Assembly: GCF_028649655.1 (NCBI RefSeq)
Contig: NZ_JAQSLN010000003.1
Coordinates: forward strand, 992,001 to 1,056,000
Source of the DNA: Halobacteriovorax sp. GB3
GTDB lineage: Bacteria; Bdellovibrionota; Bacteriovoracia; Bacteriovoracales; Bacteriovoracaceae
Length of the DNA stretch: 64,000 nucleotides
Reading direction: 5' to 3'
Part shown: positions 36,971 to 43,462 of the stretch, piece by piece
How positions within the stretch are numbered: position 1 is the first letter of the stretch
Layout of the letters: each line of letters opens with the position of its first letter
Position numbers and translations under genes: made by a program
The notes under the pieces: generated by a model
What the model was told of the DNA's origin: nothing
Databases searched by the model: none
What the model saw: only the letters and a program-made list of their open reading frames with translations

Positions 36971-37660
36971 CTATTCAAAAGGCATAAAGTGATAGTCAGA
37001 ACCTTGAAAGAATGACTTATTTTTTAATACAAATTCTTTAGCTTCAGAAACACTATCAAATACTCCAACGCTAACTCTGTAATAAACACCGCGTCCTGGG
37101 ATGTCGACGTCATAGATAATTGGATCATAACCTCTAACAGTGACTGTACGCGCAAACTCTTCTGTTTTTAGCTTTGATTTATCGGCCATCAACTGAATCG
37201 TGTACTTCCCACTCCATTCACTCTTTTTAACATACTCTTTTTCGACAACATCTTCTTTCGCTGCTTCTGCCTTTGGAGCAGAAGCGACTGTTTCCATTTT
37301 CTCATCAGCTGTCTTCATTGAAGTTGGTTCGTTGAAAGATTGATCTTCCATTTTAAACTCTTCTTCAATTTTCTTTTTGATCTGTTCTCTGTATTTGTCT
37401 GTTTCTTCAGTTTTCGGTTGAGCTTTTTCTTCAACCATTTTCTCGACAAGTTCTTCATCTTGCGATTTAAACTCAATTGGTTTCTCAACCTTTTTCATTT
37501 CTTGCATCATTTGTGAGTTAATTCCGCTATCATTCATAGCGAACTCGCCTCCTACCTTTACTCCCAATAGAAACGAGACAAATGATGTAACGATCATAAT
37601 GAAAAAGATCGTGAACACTTCTTTTTTTGCAAATACATATACTTTCGTTTTATCTTCCAT
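36971..37660 (-). CDS. membrane-anchored SPOR-domain protein
   Basis: 229 residues. One N-terminal membrane span (EVFTIFFIMIVTSFVSFLLG), then a long acidic/basic low-complexity linker (about residues 45-145, Glu/Lys-rich), then a C-terminal SPOR domain (about 150-229, with WSGKYTIQLMADKSKLKTEE and YYRVSVGVFDSVSEAKEFV). SPOR domains bind denuded glycan strands of septal peptidoglycan, so a cell-division or cell-wall-remodelling role is likely. The Shine-Dalgarno is weak. It lies divergent from the Flp-pilin locus, across 208 bp that contain the locus promoter but no other gene. Confidence 0.82.
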   Translation of the reverse strand: MEDKTKVYVFAKKEVFTIFFIMIVTSFVSFLLGVKVGGEFAMNDSGINSQMMQEMKKVEKPIEFKSQDEELVEKMVEEKAQPKTEETDKYREQIKKKIEEEFKMEDQSFNEPTSMKTADEKMETVASAPKAEAAKEDVVEKEYVKKSEWSGKYTIQLMADKSKLKTEEFARTVTVRGYDPIIYDVDIPGRGVYYRVSVGVFDSVSEAKEFVLKNKSFFQGSDYHFMPFE

Positions 37661-37868
37661 AAGTCCATTTTAGTGGGCCTTAAAAAAACTGCAATTTATC
37701 TAATTACAGGAAGTTATTACCTACTAGGTTAATCTCCACACTAAAAGGGTCAACTTTCATGCTTCAAAAATGATTAACTTCCCCATATCGCAGCACTTCT
37801 CTTCATTTATGAATTGGCCACACTTTTGCTTTAGAACACACCTGTGACTTTCACGACTGGGAGAAAAT

Positions 37869-38039
37869 ATGAAAAGGAAAATTTTAAAAGACCAAAAAGG
37901 ACAAGGCGTTCTCGAATACATCATCATCTCAAGCCTTGTTGGAATCTTCTGTTTAGCCGCCATTGGAAAGTATGGAGAAGTTTTAAAGAAGAGAGTGAAC
38001 AATATGACGAATAAAGTTTCTCAAAGAGTCAGACTGTAA
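37869..38039 (+). CDS. Flp-type pilin, 56 aa
   Basis: A short protein with a basic leader and the Flp prepilin processing motif: after KDQKG the sequence is QGVLEYIIISSLVGIF, with Glu at +5 and Tyr at +6 of the presumed mature protein. It is followed by a hydrophobic span and a basic C-terminal helix (KKRVNNMTNKV). It is the expected size of a Flp/Tad pilus subunit. GGGAG lies five bases before the ATG. First gene of the Tad-like run; it overlaps the next gene (TAATG). Confidence 0.8.
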   Translation: MKRKILKDQKGQGVLEYIIISSLVGIFCLAAIGKYGEVLKKRVNNMTNKVSQRVRL

Positions 38040-38194
38040 TGATTCAGTTTTTCTTTTCTACAACTATGTTTTTAAGTTCATTTCTACTCATGCTCAAGCT
38101 TGTCATTTTTATGAATCACAAAAGTGATGAGCAATATAGAGACTGGAAGGTTTATGCAAAAAAGCAAGTCACTCTACTTGATCACAAAAAGTAA
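38039..38194 (+). CDS. small membrane protein, 51 aa
   Basis: Not recognised. One N-terminal membrane span (FFFSTTMFLSSFLLMLKLVI) and a short basic/acidic soluble tail. The start overlaps the Flp pilin stop (TAATG), suggesting coupled translation. The C-terminal part overlaps the start of the TadG-like gene by 41 bases. A role as a minor pilus-assembly component is inferred only from its position. Confidence 0.5.
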   Translation: MIQFFFSTTMFLSSFLLMLKLVIFMNHKSDEQYRDWKVYAKKQVTLLDHKK

Positions 38195-38813
38195 TTCCAA
38201 CCAATCAGGCCAAATAGCTCCGCTTTTGGCCTTATTCCTTACTCTCTTTTTTGCGGTCATCATACATTTCATTTATTCAAATTTCAGAAACCATGAATCA
38301 ATGAATCAGCAAATGAAAGCTCTTTTATGCTTCAAGAAGTCCTATATAAGCTCATCTTCTCTTTTGAAGAGTATGGCCAATTATAACAAAGTTATTGCGG
38401 CAAGCTTTATTTCAAAGAATACACCTGGACCTTGGGTTCAAGCGGCTACAGCGACCTATGAAGCGACGAAAAAGGCACAACAACTCCACTACTCTTTTTC
38501 ATTAATGAAATTTCTCTCTTTAAAGTCCACTTGTAGCTATCTCAATATCGCTCAAATAGTTAAAAGCTTTCCCTACAAAGGCCAAACTTCTGGCCTTCTC
38601 TTAATAAGAAACTTCAATGGAACAGCTAAAATAACGAGGAAAAAATGGGAAATAAAAAAGCATATTCTTCCAATCAATGGCAAAAACCCAGAGATCATAA
38701 AACTAAATGCAATTTTTCACCTCAAGAACAACTATACATCGCCAAAAACAAAGCTCGTCTGGAAAGAGGTTTCTCTACCATCGAAATTGCCATTACCCTT
38801 ACGATCCTACTAG
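38154..38813 (+). CDS. TadG-like pseudopilin or pilus-associated protein
   Basis: About 219 residues. After a short basic N-terminus, the segment SNQSGQIAPLLALFLTLFFA starts a single membrane helix in the style of TadG/TadE proteins (which usually have G-x-x-A-x-x-x-A-L). The remainder is periplasmic with two Cys residues (LLCFKK, STCSYL). ATG at 38154 with GGAAGG three to five bases upstream is preferred to ATG at 38124. The C-terminus overlaps the prepilin-like frame by 169 bases. Assignment rests on the N-terminus and position. Confidence 0.5.
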   Translation: MQKSKSLYLITKSNSNQSGQIAPLLALFLTLFFAVIIHFIYSNFRNHESMNQQMKALLCFKKSYISSSSLLKSMANYNKVIAASFISKNTPGPWVQAATATYEATKKAQQLHYSFSLMKFLSLKSTCSYLNIAQIVKSFPYKGQTSGLLLIRNFNGTAKITRKKWEIKKHILPINGKNPEIIKLNAIFHLKNNYTSPKTKLVWKEVSLPSKLPLPLRSY

Positions 38814-38911
38814 CTCTCTTGGCCCTTACTTATAACTACTTTAACTTCTCTCAAGCAGAATTAGTAAACAAACAAAAGGACTTCAAAAGTGAATGGACAA
38901 AAATTAAATGA
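38645..38911 (+). CDS. type IV prepilin-like protein in overlapping frame
   Basis: The frame contains a canonical prepilin-peptidase signature, ERGFSTIEIAITLTILLALL (Gly then Phe, Glu at +5), at residues 41-60, then a short C-terminal tail. GAGGA lies four bases before ATG 38645, which would give a 42-residue leader and a 169-base overlap with the TadG-like gene. The leader sequence may be a shadow, and translation may start nearer the signature. No ATG, GTG or TTG close to it was found. TadE/TadF-like by position. Confidence 0.5.
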   Translation: MGNKKAYSSNQWQKPRDHKTKCNFSPQEQLYIAKNKARLERGFSTIEIAITLTILLALLALTYNYFNFSQAELVNKQKDFKSEWTKIK

Positions 38912-39371
38912 AAGCATTCTCTTTCCAAAAGAGATTGAATCGAAAGTGAAGAAAAAACTCATTTACAAATTTAGCGCCGCTTTAATTCTTTCGAATATAC
39001 TCGTGCTTCTGTTAAGTACACCCTCATCTCAAATATCGGATGAAAAAAAGATTGAGTTGGCCGAATCGAGCCTAAGACTTAAGCTAGAGCTCCTTGTCCC
39101 TTTGAACTTAGATAACACTACTGAAGTATCACTCTATGATCAACGCAATCATCTCCTCGCTAAGAAAGCTTATATAATTAAAAGAATGGCACAAAAGGAA
39201 ATTCTTCTCGATGAAAGGGAGGAGCTATTCGAGGTTTCGGTCTTCGACAGAGATCTTAAAAAAATACTCTCAACGAAGAATATAAAAATTAAAGCGACAC
39301 CCCCTAACTACATTCCTAAAAAGCTAACTGTTAACACCTTCAAGCGAGGACCTTATGAAATTACATTTTAA
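38889..39371 (+). CDS. membrane-anchored protein in the Tad-like locus, 160 aa
   Basis: Not securely recognised. One membrane span (LIYKFSAALILSNILVLLLS) followed by a beta-rich periplasmic domain (RLKLELLVPLNLDNTTEVSL, then LLDEREELFEVSVFDRDLKK). Its position is where CpaB/RcpC is found in Tad loci, but no SAF-domain signature is seen, so this is only a suggestion. The start is GTG with AAGGA eight bases upstream. It overlaps the neighbouring genes at both ends. Confidence 0.5.
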   Translation: MNGQKLNESILFPKEIESKVKKKLIYKFSAALILSNILVLLLSTPSSQISDEKKIELAESSLRLKLELLVPLNLDNTTEVSLYDQRNHLLAKKAYIIKRMAQKEILLDEREELFEVSVFDRDLKKILSTKNIKIKATPPNYIPKKLTVNTFKRGPYEITF

Positions 39372-39678
39372 ATTTGTTGCACTCTTTCTCTTATTCTTTC
39401 TGAATTTCTCTTCTAATGCTCAAGAAGTTCTACTAACTATTGCAAATAACGAGTCACCACAGATTCAACAAACTCTAGAAAAAATTATGGCAACGCACAT
39501 GCCAAAGAAAAGCTATCGCGTGACAAAGGAGTATTCAAACTGCAATGAAGCAGCAACGCAAACCAAAGTCTTCCACCTCTGTCTTGAAAAAGGAAATATC
39601 TTTGTCCTAAACAACCTGGAAGAGATTCGAGTGAAGTATTCACTCTTCTGGAAAGAAGGAGTCTTTGCACATGAATAA
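39355..39678 (+). CDS. small exported protein in the Tad-like locus, 107 aa
   Basis: Not recognised. Signal peptide (FVALFLLFFLNFSSNAQ) followed by an 85-residue mature domain with a Cys pair (YSNCNEAA, HLCLEKG), probably periplasmic. GAGG lies five bases before the ATG. The start overlaps the preceding gene by 17 bases. It is the last plus-strand gene before the hairpin and the antisense mini-gene at 39745-39876. Confidence 0.55.
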   Translation: MKLHFKFVALFLLFFLNFSSNAQEVLLTIANNESPQIQQTLEKIMATHMPKKSYRVTKEYSNCNEAATQTKVFHLCLEKGNIFVLNNLEEIRVKYSLFWKEGVFAHE

Positions 39679-39687
39679 GCTAAAACG

Positions 39688-39714
39688 AAAAAAGGGCCTT
39701 GAAAAACAAGGCCC
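39688..39714 (-). terminator. Rho-independent terminator of the antisense small basic gene
   Basis: The stem GGGCCTTG/CAAGGCCC with a five-base loop (39694-39714) is followed on the minus strand by TTTTTTCGTTTT. It lies 30 bases after the stop of the 43-residue gene. On the plus strand the hairpin is followed only by CTTTAG, so it acts better on the minus strand. Confidence 0.8.
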
Positions 39715-39744
39715 CTTTAGAAATATGAACAATTACTTTAAAAA

Positions 39745-39876
39745 TTATTCTTTGTCTGGGTGGATTGCAAACTTAGGTGTTGTACCTTTATTTCTGTTTG
39801 CTGCTTTTCTTTTAGCACCCATTTTCTTTTTTCTAGCACTTCTCTTATTTCTTGTAATTCTAGTAAGTGAAACCAT
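39745..39876 (-). CDS. 43-residue highly basic protein, antisense to the Tad-like locus
   Basis: Not recognised by name. The product is rich in Arg and Lys over residues 6-30 (RITRNKRSARKKKMGAKRKA) and ends with GTTPKFAIHPDKE. This composition suggests an RNA-binding or ribosome-associated small protein, or a histone-like one; this is inference. Support that it is a real gene: AGGAG seven bases before the ATG, a TTGACA / TAGAAA promoter with a 17-base spacer at 39938-39966, and a strong terminator 30 bases after the stop. It lies in the opposite strand of the pilus genes and breaks their run. Confidence 0.75.
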   Translation of the reverse strand: MVSLTRITRNKRSARKKKMGAKRKAANRNKGTTPKFAIHPDKE

Positions 39877-39880
39877 CTTT

Positions 39881-41221
39881 ATGCTCCTATATCTACAATC
39901 TAAAACTTTAACTTCAATATTAAGATGTAAGGTCATATTTCTACCGATTTTTGGGCCATCTGTCAAAGCCTTCCTACAATTTACACTACTTTATGGTCTT
40001 TTTTCCACGGCAACATATGCAAGTACTGAAAATTCCATTACAAGCTATAAAAAAATAATATTGAGCACAGGCGAACATAGGCAACTCAAGCTCTCTAAAA
40101 TCAATAAATACACCTTATCTAACAAGGATGTTCTCACGTTCAACCCAAATTCAGCGCTCATTAAAGGCAAGAAAAAGGGCTATAGCGAGCTCATTGTCTG
40201 GTATAAAAATCATAAATCAACATTTCAGGTCTATGTTTACTCTAAGACTAAATCATTAGAACTAAGCAATCATATAAGAGCGCTTGAAAAAATTGGATTA
40301 AAAGCAGAGTTCTTTGGAGATAAGATACTCGTTAAGGGAGTGATTGAAGAGCTCGAGCAGCTTCGACTTTTAAAAAGCTTGCTTAGAAAAAAGAGACTTA
40401 TATTCTTAAGTGACGTTCGCTTAGAAAGAGAATTAGCAAAGAGTCTTATTGCTGATGTTTACACTCACTTTTTTCAAAACTACGGGCCAGAAGTTCACTG
40501 CGACATTCTTGGAATAGACGTCGATTGTTACTACTTGGAATCTTATAGTCTCAATAAGAAAACAAAGACCGTATTAGAACAGAGATTTGCTATTAATCTT
40601 CTAAAAAAGAGAAATCTTCCAAAGAACTATCAACTCAAACTAAAGTTACTTCAAATTCAAACGACAAATTCTAATGAAAGAAATTTCGGTTTATCACAAC
40701 TTAACTTCCCCCTTAAAGATATCTTTTATGGAAATGATAAAGCGATTGTTGAAAATAATCGCTTTATCCTTGAAAAGAAAGACATCAAAATTAAAACACT
40801 GGCAACACCACAGACTCTTATTCGACTAGGAAAAAAAGCAAAACTCCAACTAGGAAGTGAAATCCCTTACACTACTCATAATTTACAGCAATCAAATACT
40901 CAGTGGAATTTTGCCGGATTAAAACTGAAAATCGGATTAGATAAAGAACAAGGAAAATTTTCTTTAAAAGTAGAGAGTGAATTAACAACACCGGGTAAAA
41001 CAGGAGATATCCTTGGAAACAAGCAGGAAAGTCACTTCTTTATCAATTTAAAAGAGCCACTTATTATCTTTGATGTCGGTATGGAAATACAAGGCGAAAA
41101 GAAAACAGGTATTCCTATTCTATCCTCAATCCCTCTAATCGGAATTCCTTTTAGAGGGAAAGCTAAAGAAAAAGTTTATAAAAAAATTATCGCAATCGCA
41201 CAGATTGAGCAGGTAAAGTAA
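39881..41221 (+). CDS. CpaC/RcpA-type pilus secretin
   Basis: Outer-membrane channel protein of a Tad pilus, about 446 residues with the start assumed here. Order: signal-like hydrophobic segment ending in FSTATYAS, the CpaC N-terminal domain (STGEHRQLKLSKINKYTLSN, GYSELIVWYKN), a BON-like domain (LEKIGLKAEFFGDKILVKGV), and the secretin domain (LATPQTLIRLGKKAKLQLGS, then the end motif GIPILSSIPLIGIPF). The open frame extends back to 39665, but that part is antisense to a separate gene and gives a spurious Leu/Phe-rich sequence. ATG 39881 is a guess with a poor Shine-Dalgarno. It overlaps tadA (TAATG). Confidence 0.75.
   Translation: MLLYLQSKTLTSILRCKVIFLPIFGPSVKAFLQFTLLYGLFSTATYASTENSITSYKKIILSTGEHRQLKLSKINKYTLSNKDVLTFNPNSALIKGKKKGYSELIVWYKNHKSTFQVYVYSKTKSLELSNHIRALEKIGLKAEFFGDKILVKGVIEELEQLRLLKSLLRKKRLIFLSDVRLERELAKSLIADVYTHFFQNYGPEVHCDILGIDVDCYYLESYSLNKKTKTVLEQRFAINLLKKRNLPKNYQLKLKLLQIQTTNSNERNFGLSQLNFPLKDIFYGNDKAIVENNRFILEKKDIKIKTLATPQTLIRLGKKAKLQLGSEIPYTTHNLQQSNTQWNFAGLKLKIGLDKEQGKFSLKVESELTTPGKTGDILGNKQESHFFINLKEPLIIFDVGMEIQGEKKTGIPILSSIPLIGIPFRGKAKEKVYKKIIAIAQIEQVK
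39938..39966 (-). promoter_or_regulatory. sigma-70-like promoter of the 43-residue basic gene
   Basis: On the minus strand TTGACA (39961-39966) and TAGAAA (39938-39943) are separated by exactly 17 bases. Transcription would start near 39931, leaving a leader of about 55 bases before the AGGAG and ATG. Confidence 0.65.
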
Positions 41222-42372
41222 TGAATCAAATAGAAATTAAAATCGAAAAAACGTTCAAAGATGACTTTTATCAATTAGCTCAAAAACAGCAGTTTGAAAC
41301 ATTTGATAACTTAATGACTAGATTAGAAATGAAAACGGGCCTTAAAAAAAATACGATTTCAAATATTAGTGATCTCAAAAAATGGTTTGATAACATTCTC
41401 TCTCTGAAAGAAGTTGAAACCATACTTGAGAGAAATGATTTTGAAGAGTTCATCATTCACTCTCCTCAAAAAGCGAGCTTATCTTTGCAAGGAAACAAAC
41501 AAGAGTGTCCTCTTAATGGATTTGATGATAAAGACCTTCAAACTGCACTAGAATACCTGGCCCATAAAAATGGGCAATTTTGGAATTATACAAACCCATT
41601 CGTTAGTTTCAAATGTTCAATTTCCAAAATTGACTTACGTTGTACACTTATTCACAAGTCAACTTGCCCCAGTGGTCATTCTAAGGCCTTCTTTAGAAGA
41701 CAGTCATCAATGATTCATCCCTTGGATTCTTTTTGTGAAAATAATTCGAAAGAGATTATGTGTGAGCTCATTAAGAATAAAAGAAATATTATTATTTCAG
41801 GTTCAACAGGCTCTGGAAAAACATCATTTATTAAGTCACTTCTTTATGAATCAAGTGAACCGGATGAGCATATTATTATCTTAGAAGATACTGATGAAAT
41901 TGAAAGAAAGACAGAGACATGGACAAAATTACTTTCAGTAAACCAAAAAGGAAAGACCTTAAAGGACTTTTGCCATTATGCTCTAAGAATGAGTCCAGAC
42001 AGAATGGTTCTTGGGGAAATTAGATCAAGTGAAGTTATCCCGTTTGTGTTATCGATGAACAATGGCCATAAAGGTCTACTCTCCACCGTTCACGCTAATA
42101 GTGCAAATGACACACTCTCTAGGCTCTCACTCCTTTTTAGTCTCTATAATGACTCATCAGGTAGTATTGATCATCAAACGATAAATCAATTAATGGCACA
42201 AAGTATTGACTATGTTGTTCATCTAAAAAACAAAAAGGTACACGAGATATCAAAAGTTATTTCATGGCATGGACAGCGACCTACATTTGAACATCTCTAT
42301 AAAAAGGCGATTAGCAATACTCTAGAAGATAATCATGGCAAATCTTCAAGGCCCTTTCAAATTGGTTTTTAG
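41221..42372 (+). CDS. TadA/CpaF-type pilus ATPase
   Basis: 383 residues, a secretion-ATPase of the type II/IV family that powers pilus assembly in the cytoplasm. Visible motifs: Walker A GSTGSGKT (about residue 195), Asp box IILEDTDEIE, Walker B RMVLGEIRSSE and His box GHKGLLSTVHANSAND (about 280). It lacks the longer N-terminal extension of many CpaF proteins. The start overlaps the secretin stop by one base. The 3' end overlaps the convergent lysC by 62 bases. Confidence 0.88.
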   Translation: MNQIEIKIEKTFKDDFYQLAQKQQFETFDNLMTRLEMKTGLKKNTISNISDLKKWFDNILSLKEVETILERNDFEEFIIHSPQKASLSLQGNKQECPLNGFDDKDLQTALEYLAHKNGQFWNYTNPFVSFKCSISKIDLRCTLIHKSTCPSGHSKAFFRRQSSMIHPLDSFCENNSKEIMCELIKNKRNIIISGSTGSGKTSFIKSLLYESSEPDEHIIILEDTDEIERKTETWTKLLSVNQKGKTLKDFCHYALRMSPDRMVLGEIRSSEVIPFVLSMNNGHKGLLSTVHANSANDTLSRLSLLFSLYNDSSGSIDHQTINQLMAQSIDYVVHLKNKKVHEISKVISWHGQRPTFEHLYKKAISNTLEDNHGKSSRPFQIGF

Positions 42373-43462
42373 GAACAAGAAGTGAAACCTTCTTTTGAGT
42401 TTGCTCGAATGTTTCAAGAGAAATACCTGATTCTTTGAGCAGATCGTAAGGGTTGAAGTTTTCATTCAAAAGAGAGTTTCCAATAAATGAAATCTTCATA
42501 TAATTTCTATTTTCGATGACTTTCTCATCAAAGGCGAGACCAACAATTTTTCGTCCCTCTCCCACTGAACCACTTATTCGAGTCCCCGTACAATCAGGTT
42601 CATATGTAGACTTCACATAAACATCGATAGACGATCTCATGGCCGGTTCTAATGTTTTAGGAAAGAGAACCTTCGCACCGGCCATGGCCATAGCAGAAGC
42701 TTCTTCATAACTCATCTCGCTAATAAACTGAGCATCTTCAATCAGTCTAGGATCACAAGTTGCAATACCAGGAACATCGGTCCAAATATAAACGCGATTT
42801 GCCCCAATAGCCTCTGCAAAGAGAACCGCTGAAAAGTCGGAGCCTTCTCGACCAAGTGTCGTTGTCTCTCCCTTTTGGCTTTGGCCAATAAAGCCTTGTG
42901 TGATGTAGAAACTTTTAAATGAATCATCTGATAGAATTTCTTGGTAGGCAGCTTCTTTAATATCATTAACAAGCGGTAGAGCTTTTTTGAAGTCTCCATT
43001 TGTTATGATAACTTTTCGTGCATCAATAAACTTTACATCTCGATCTTTTAAAAGCTCTTTTGCATAAAAATAGACTAAATGACTAGATAGCCTCTCCCCA
43101 AATGAATAGAGAGCGTCCATATTATGATCGTAGAGATAAGATTTCGAGGCGATCTGCTCACCTAGTTTTAAAATCTCTTTTTCAAGACCCAGGAAAACCA
43201 TTTCCATAGACTCATTAATATTCAGCTGAACCGCGATCTCTTTATGACGATCGAGAATCGATTTTAAATATATTTTAGAGGCCTCAAAATTTGAAAGAAA
43301 GAAATCAGCGAGTTTTTCAAGTTGGTTTGTCGTATCGTATGTGGCCGAGACGACCATCATCTTGGCCCCTTCAGTGTCTTGAATGATCTGCAGACAACGC
43401 TCAATTGCTTGTGCGTCTCTGACAGAGCTTCCACCAAATTTACATACGATACGATTTGCCAA
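42311..43462 (-). CDS. lysC: aspartate kinase
   Basis: Phosphorylates aspartate, the first step to lysine, threonine, methionine and diaminopimelate. 383 residues, shorter than typical LysC (about 400-450). The kinase signature is CKFGGSSVRDAQAIERC, with VVSATYDTTNQL, LGREGSDFSAVLFAEAIGA, IWTDVPGI and EMSYEEASAMAMAGAKVLFP. After that only about 95 residues remain, so the regulatory ACT region looks reduced to one short copy. This may alter feedback control (inference). The start is TTG, four bases after ettA. It overlaps tadA convergently. Confidence 0.9.
   Translation of the reverse strand: MANRIVCKFGGSSVRDAQAIERCLQIIQDTEGAKMMVVSATYDTTNQLEKLADFFLSNFEASKIYLKSILDRHKEIAVQLNINESMEMVFLGLEKEILKLGEQIASKSYLYDHNMDALYSFGERLSSHLVYFYAKELLKDRDVKFIDARKVIITNGDFKKALPLVNDIKEAAYQEILSDDSFKSFYITQGFIGQSQKGETTTLGREGSDFSAVLFAEAIGANRVYIWTDVPGIATCDPRLIEDAQFISEMSYEEASAMAMAGAKVLFPKTLEPAMRSSIDVYVKSTYEPDCTGTRISGSVGEGRKIVGLAFDEKVIENRNYMKISFIGNSLLNENFNPYDLLKESGISLETFEQTQKKVSLLVPKNQFERALKICHDYLLEYC

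Follow-up and report, generated by a model that had tools for sequence, protein, structure and literature searches.

A phylum-wide small basic-protein gene of the Bdellovibrionota and its probable antisense overprinting by a Tad secretin in the Bacteriovoracaceae

The DNA analyzed here, referred to as the window, is a 64,000-nucleotide stretch of the Halobacteriovorax sp. GB3 contig NZ_JAQSLN010000003.1. It includes a Tad pilus locus in which a small gene lies on the minus strand opposite the 5' end of the secretin gene (Table 1). The initial annotation had described this small gene as a full antisense expression unit cutting through the pilus operon, and the promoter, the AGGAG, the 43-codon ORF and the terminator are all present as described. 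Base-by-base reading of the minus strand places the start ATG at 39876-39874, with 7 nt between the AGGAG and the ATG, and the stop codon at 39747-39745. The peptide, MVSLTRITRNKRSARKKKMGAKRKAANRNKGTTPKFAIHPDKE, has lysine or arginine at 15 of its 43 residues. The terminator stem consists of 12 pairs, 6 of them G-C, and is followed by TTTTTTCGTTTT. The small-gene promoter sits inside the secretin coding frame, in its signal-peptide region, and the terminator falls in the first codons of the secretin gene.

Table 1. Features of the small gene and of the surrounding Tad genes (window coordinates).
Feature	Position	Strand	Evidence
CDS, 43-residue basic protein (stop codon included)	39745..39876	-	ORF read directly; single-copy family in 250/290 phylum genomes
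Shine-Dalgarno AGGAG of the small gene	39884..39888	-	Read directly; SD-like sequence at the same place in nearly all relatives
Small-gene promoter: -35 TTGACA (39966-39961), 17-nt spacer, -10 TAGAAA (39943-39938)	39938..39966	-	TTGAC in 89/91 loci
Small-gene intrinsic terminator: stem 39718-39690 and T-rich tail	39683..39718	-	Terminators in 57/91 loci
Tad secretin (CpaC/RcpA type), 516 aa, probable long-form start ATG 39671	39671..41221	+	Pfam Secretin (PF00263), E 1.8e-9, above the curated cut-off; start pattern across loci
Shine-Dalgarno AAGGAG, 9 nt 5' of secretin ATG 39671	39656..39661	+	Read directly
Probable secretin N-terminal extension, antisense to the small gene	39671..39961	+	Open in 83/91 loci; stop-forming codons avoided
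Upstream Tad-locus gene, 107 aa, signal-peptide-like start	39355..39678	+	Stop overlaps secretin start; junction repeated in 70/73 loci
Downstream Tad ATPase (CpaF/TadA type)	41221..42372	+	Pfam T2SSE, E 8.5e-30

The Secretin domain and the position before a CpaF-type ATPase gene assign the plus-strand gene to the Tad secretins, which it also resembles in its well-predicted core. It differs from the usual members of this class in about 97 extra N-terminal residues that precede a signal-peptide-like helix and are coded opposite another gene. The predicted structure shows a hydrophobic helix at residues 38-82 and the signal-peptide-like helix at residues 95-116, and the rest is well predicted. 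The secretin ATG overlaps the stop codon of the upstream 107-aa gene by 8 nt. Trp31 of the secretin (39761-39763) lies opposite conserved Ile-His codons of the small gene, and the small-gene -35 box is complementary to the secretin codons for Val98-Lys99; among the secretins V98 is invariant and K99 nearly so. Two small genes just 5' of the secretin (38889-39371, 160 aa, and 39355-39678, 107 aa) have no Pfam match. The genome of locus L178 (G000:C5:45685-45849) also has, elsewhere, a second secretin of the pilus type, carrying a T2SS-T3SS_pil_N domain. The two small genes 5' of the secretin could conceivably be related to the proteins Bd0108 and Bd0109 of the Bdellovibrio hit locus (PMC3818213).

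The promoter in the window is not significant when taken alone: a consensus scan of the region yielded 14 promoter-like sites versus 13.3 in shuffled sequences, and TTGACA-17-TAGAAA was not among the 14. Its significance comes from comparison, because 89 of the 91 distinct related loci have a TTGAC box 5' of the small gene, with a -10-like hexamer usually 16-18 nt away, because an intrinsic terminator is found 3' of the gene in 57 of the 91 loci (versus 1.3% in shuffles), and because the peptide is conserved throughout the phylum. A subclade of loci with long-tailed proteins has the terminator about 60-90 nt beyond the small-gene stop, which puts it within or close to the end of the upstream Tad gene.

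Conservation of the peptide at the protein level, the test proposed in the initial annotation, was found phylum-wide and extends to families in which the gene lies away from Tad genes. In a single-sequence search, 34 of the 37 same-family genomes, the source genome included, proved to have one copy each. A profile (A1) built from 26 members and used to search the phylum then extended the family to 250 of the 290 Bdellovibrionota genomes, in 128 of the 152 genera and some 24 families, with one gene in almost every carrier genome; no plasmid copies were found in a search for them. A genome scan with a single C-terminal-motif peptide pattern returned only Bacteriovorax-like, Oligoflexia, Bdellovibrio and unclassified-bacteria records. 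The members share the core pattern M-x-S-x-T...R...K...G..RK...NKGTT and end in PKFxIH in many families and in an LFGD-like sequence in others. Judged by this comparison, the minus-strand ORF at 39745-39876 is almost certainly a real and ancient Bdellovibrionota gene that encodes a small basic protein and has a promoter, ribosome-binding site and terminator of its own. A small-protein family that had no curated model and is present in most Bdellovibrionota genomes is thus now defined.

The same-family genomes that do not carry the small gene (G007, G033, G013, G193, G249 and G262) also have no intact copy of this secretin, of which G262 retains only a fragment; in these six genomes both genes were either lost together or missed together in the assembly. 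In 13 loci of one subclade (L008, L038, L040, L042, L043, L046, L050, L056, L071, L079, L080, L108 and L117) the small protein has an Ala/Lys/Pro-rich, histone-H1-like tail of 30-59 residues. Gln, His and Tyr, which have codons able to create stops in the secretin frame opposite, are almost absent from these tails.

The genomic position of the small gene varies within the phylum. An initial set of 30 same-family loci all have it on the strand opposite the 5' end of a Tad secretin gene, and the same placement was found across 91 distinct Bacteriovoracaceae loci and in seven further genomes with the nested arrangement. Sister families (e.g. L137, L138, L142-L144 and L151) have a homologous secretin, recognized by full-length or partial profile matches with E values of 1e-17 to 1e-45, head-to-head with the small gene and mostly not overlapping it; the S-adenosylmethionine synthetase gene (metK) is usually found 3' of the small gene. 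In other families the gene is at a distance from Tad genes, and its neighbors are TonB-like genes, surE or, in one family, rplC and efp. Since the sister families show the non-overlapping order and others place the gene away from Tad genes, the small gene is, on this comparison of gene orders, older than its overlap with the secretin.

Small basic ribosomal or nucleoid proteins are the general type with which the small protein can be compared. It resembles them in size, in lysine and arginine content, in its predicted helix and tail and, in some loci, in the Ala/Lys/Pro-rich tails, and it differs from them in having no detectable sequence or structure match. The AlphaFold model has a helix at residues 4-28 (25 residues) followed by an extended tail, with a mean pLDDT of 80. 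Neither the peptide nor its profile had a match in Pfam, NCBIfam or a PDB sequence search, Foldseek found no similar fold in the PDB, and no ribosomal model or solved ribosome chain matched. The composition, the predicted basic helix, the H1-like tails, the near-universal single copy and the rplC/efp neighborhood point to a constitutively expressed RNA- or ribosome-binding protein, a role to which we give even odds. On the other hand, the H1-like tails of the 13 loci and the basic helix of the model would also suit a DNA-binding nucleoid protein that does not bind RNA or the ribosome, an assignment that we consider rather unlikely in view of the family in which rplC and efp adjoin the gene.

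The mRNA of the small gene would be complementary to more than 200 nt of the secretin mRNA, and therefore expression of the two genes should interfere, as should their opposed promoters; secretin expression may be lowered while the small gene is active. Judged from position, antisense regulation of the secretin by transcription of the small gene is physically likely. Going further, the complementarity of the transcript to the early secretin coding region and the maintenance of its position in all the Bacteriovoracaceae loci examined could be taken to mean that the minus-strand unit is mainly a cis-antisense RNA controlling the secretin and that the peptide is secondary, but this is improbable, as the peptide is conserved phylum-wide, including where the transcript is antisense to no pilus gene. 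A search of Rfam gave no match within 37000-43000.

Several properties of the overlap indicate that the secretin frame is also used. The small ORF is located wholly inside the secretin ORF, on the opposite strand, in 83 of the 91 loci and in seven further genomes, and the register is such that the third codon positions of both frames coincide. The loci share ancestry and the P-values are therefore descriptive. The secretin frame runs open through the small gene in 82 of 90 testable loci versus 36.7 ± 4.3 expected when synonymous codons are randomized with local codon usage, and opposite small-gene codons 1-37 alone it is open in 90 of 90 versus 79.9 expected. Of 69 homologues from other families, which served as a control, 33 have this antisense frame open. 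Codons of the small gene end in T at 9 of 138 sites where this would form a stop in the secretin frame versus 1488 of 3061 ordinary sites, while families that have no overlap use T at 28 of 54 of the same stop-forming sites. This contrast still holds among highly diverged loci, as shown by 46 representatives with secretins less than 45% identical to each other (8/82 at stop-forming sites versus 625/1346 elsewhere). Likewise, T is the last letter of the Ile or Val codon that precedes the conserved His in 18 of 37 homologues from the control families versus 8 of 90 Bacteriovoracaceae loci. Constraint on the secretin residues themselves is supported more weakly, by the choice of arginine codons and by hydropathy.

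Not all loci have the full-length overlap, since the secretin frame is stopped opposite the small gene in 8 of the 91 loci. In these eight, small-gene codons 1-37 still face an open secretin frame, and in seven this stretch contains a TTG with AGGAG 8 nt upstream, so that a shorter overlap is possible there. The small-gene codons Thr33-Pro34-Lys35 (ACT CCT AAG; 39772-39780) depart strongly from local usage. An internal ribosome-binding site for the secretin was rejected as the reason, because the bias, clearest at Lys35 AAG, is also found in families that have no overlap. A hairpin in the mRNA between the ribosome-binding site and these codons was inconsistent across folds.

A second line of evidence comes from the leader of the small gene. 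Its ATG and -35 box are 57 to 117 nt apart, with about 19 different lengths represented, and the distance is divisible by 3 in 86 of the 89 loci when the box is chosen automatically; in the remaining three (L024, L090 and L092) an in-register box is also present at -57. In control loci the same distance modulo 3 was spread over the three possible remainders, with counts of 12, 12 and 8. An untranslated leader would otherwise have no reason to keep its length in register, and coding on the opposite strand is thus suggested. In addition, the secretin frame has a start codon no more than 30 nt from the stop of the upstream gene in 70 of the 73 open loci with an identifiable upstream gene. A 4-nt overlap is seen for 26 of these starts, and 56 are accompanied by a Shine-Dalgarno match; for some loci, no upstream start with a good Shine-Dalgarno sequence was found. 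Both frames are therefore under selection, the peptide being conserved phylum-wide and the secretin frame showing stop avoidance and frame-keeping indels. From these comparisons, it is very likely that the Bacteriovoracaceae secretin is translated from a start beside the upstream stop through the complement of the small gene, so that the same DNA would code for protein on both strands.

If only the small gene were real, the secretin would start downstream as it does in the sister families, and the long antisense frame would be a by-product of Lys/Arg-rich codons. The non-overlapping secretin start of the sister families, the secretin-frame stops of the eight loci, and the fact that lysine and arginine codons in this register yield few stops anyway are consistent with this explanation. 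It does not account for the avoidance of stop-forming codons only where the overlap exists, for promoter-to-ATG distances that hold a reading frame, or for coupled secretin starts with a Shine-Dalgarno sequence upstream of the small gene, and we regard it as improbable. The converse, that only the secretin is real and the small ORF is an accidental complement of its conserved N-terminus, draws on the shared third positions, by which conservation of one frame mimics that of the other, but is largely refuted: the peptide is kept in families with no secretin opposite, the peptide frame is intact in 91 of 91 loci including the eight with an interrupted secretin frame, the promoter, ribosome-binding site and terminator belonging to the small gene are themselves conserved, and the secretins have a median identity across loci of only about 29% versus mostly 56-83% for the peptide relative to the window copy.

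The best explanation overall, to which we assign a probability of about 85% on the strength of sequence comparison, is that an old small gene was overprinted by an N-terminal extension of the secretin, resulting in conserved antisense dual coding. The ancestral arrangement would have been a divergent pair, with the secretin gene on one side and the small gene followed by metK on the other. This pair would have been broken by the arrival of Tad genes behind the small gene, and afterwards the secretin frame may have been extended upstream across it. Such an extension would have joined the secretin to the pilus operon by translational coupling and, at the same time, written a new hydrophobic segment of the secretin N-terminus over the old gene.

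The nearest analogue among known systems is rnpA-rpmH of Thermus, in which, according to the description in PMC9841429 of the work of Feltens et al. (2003), the gene for ribosomal protein L34 is nested in another coding sequence and both are expressed. As in that case, as described there, a gene for a small basic protein is fully nested in another gene; unlike the Thermus genes, which in the same account are on the same strand with start codons sharing one initiation site, those discussed here are on opposite strands and have separate promoters. E. coli O157:H7 has antisense embedded genes as well, among them pop, which lies antisense to ompA (PMC7103648), and ano (PMC5960689); they are accompanied by expression evidence and are described as typically young and of narrow distribution (reviewed in PMC7457138). 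The Bacteriovoracaceae overlap resembles them in that two proteins would be made from opposite strands, here by coding evidence from sequence comparison. It differs in that the embedded gene is found phylum-wide and the evidence is at the codon level, as opposed to the expression data available for pop and ano. Also unlike pop and ano, the new coding layer would be the extension of the host secretin, and the embedded gene is the ancient one.

Antisense overlapping genes in bacteria are disputed, in part because the known cases are young and weakly conserved, and to our knowledge a deeply conserved coding overlap of two strands has rarely been documented. No report of this overlap in Bacteriovorax was found in the literature searched, the coverage of which was incomplete. 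The loci described here are diverged across a whole family (median secretin identity 29%) and show selection on both strands, and the sister families are a natural control in which the overlap does not exist. It is conceivable, but doubtful, that in these predatory bacteria the arrangement acts as a switch: transcription of the growth-related small-protein gene and of the Tad secretin would be mutually exclusive, pilus assembly would be tied to the growth state, and the overprinted segment would have a targeting function of its own. More generally, the finding suggests a way for an operon to be assembled across a trapped gene, namely extension of a reading frame through the complement of that gene.
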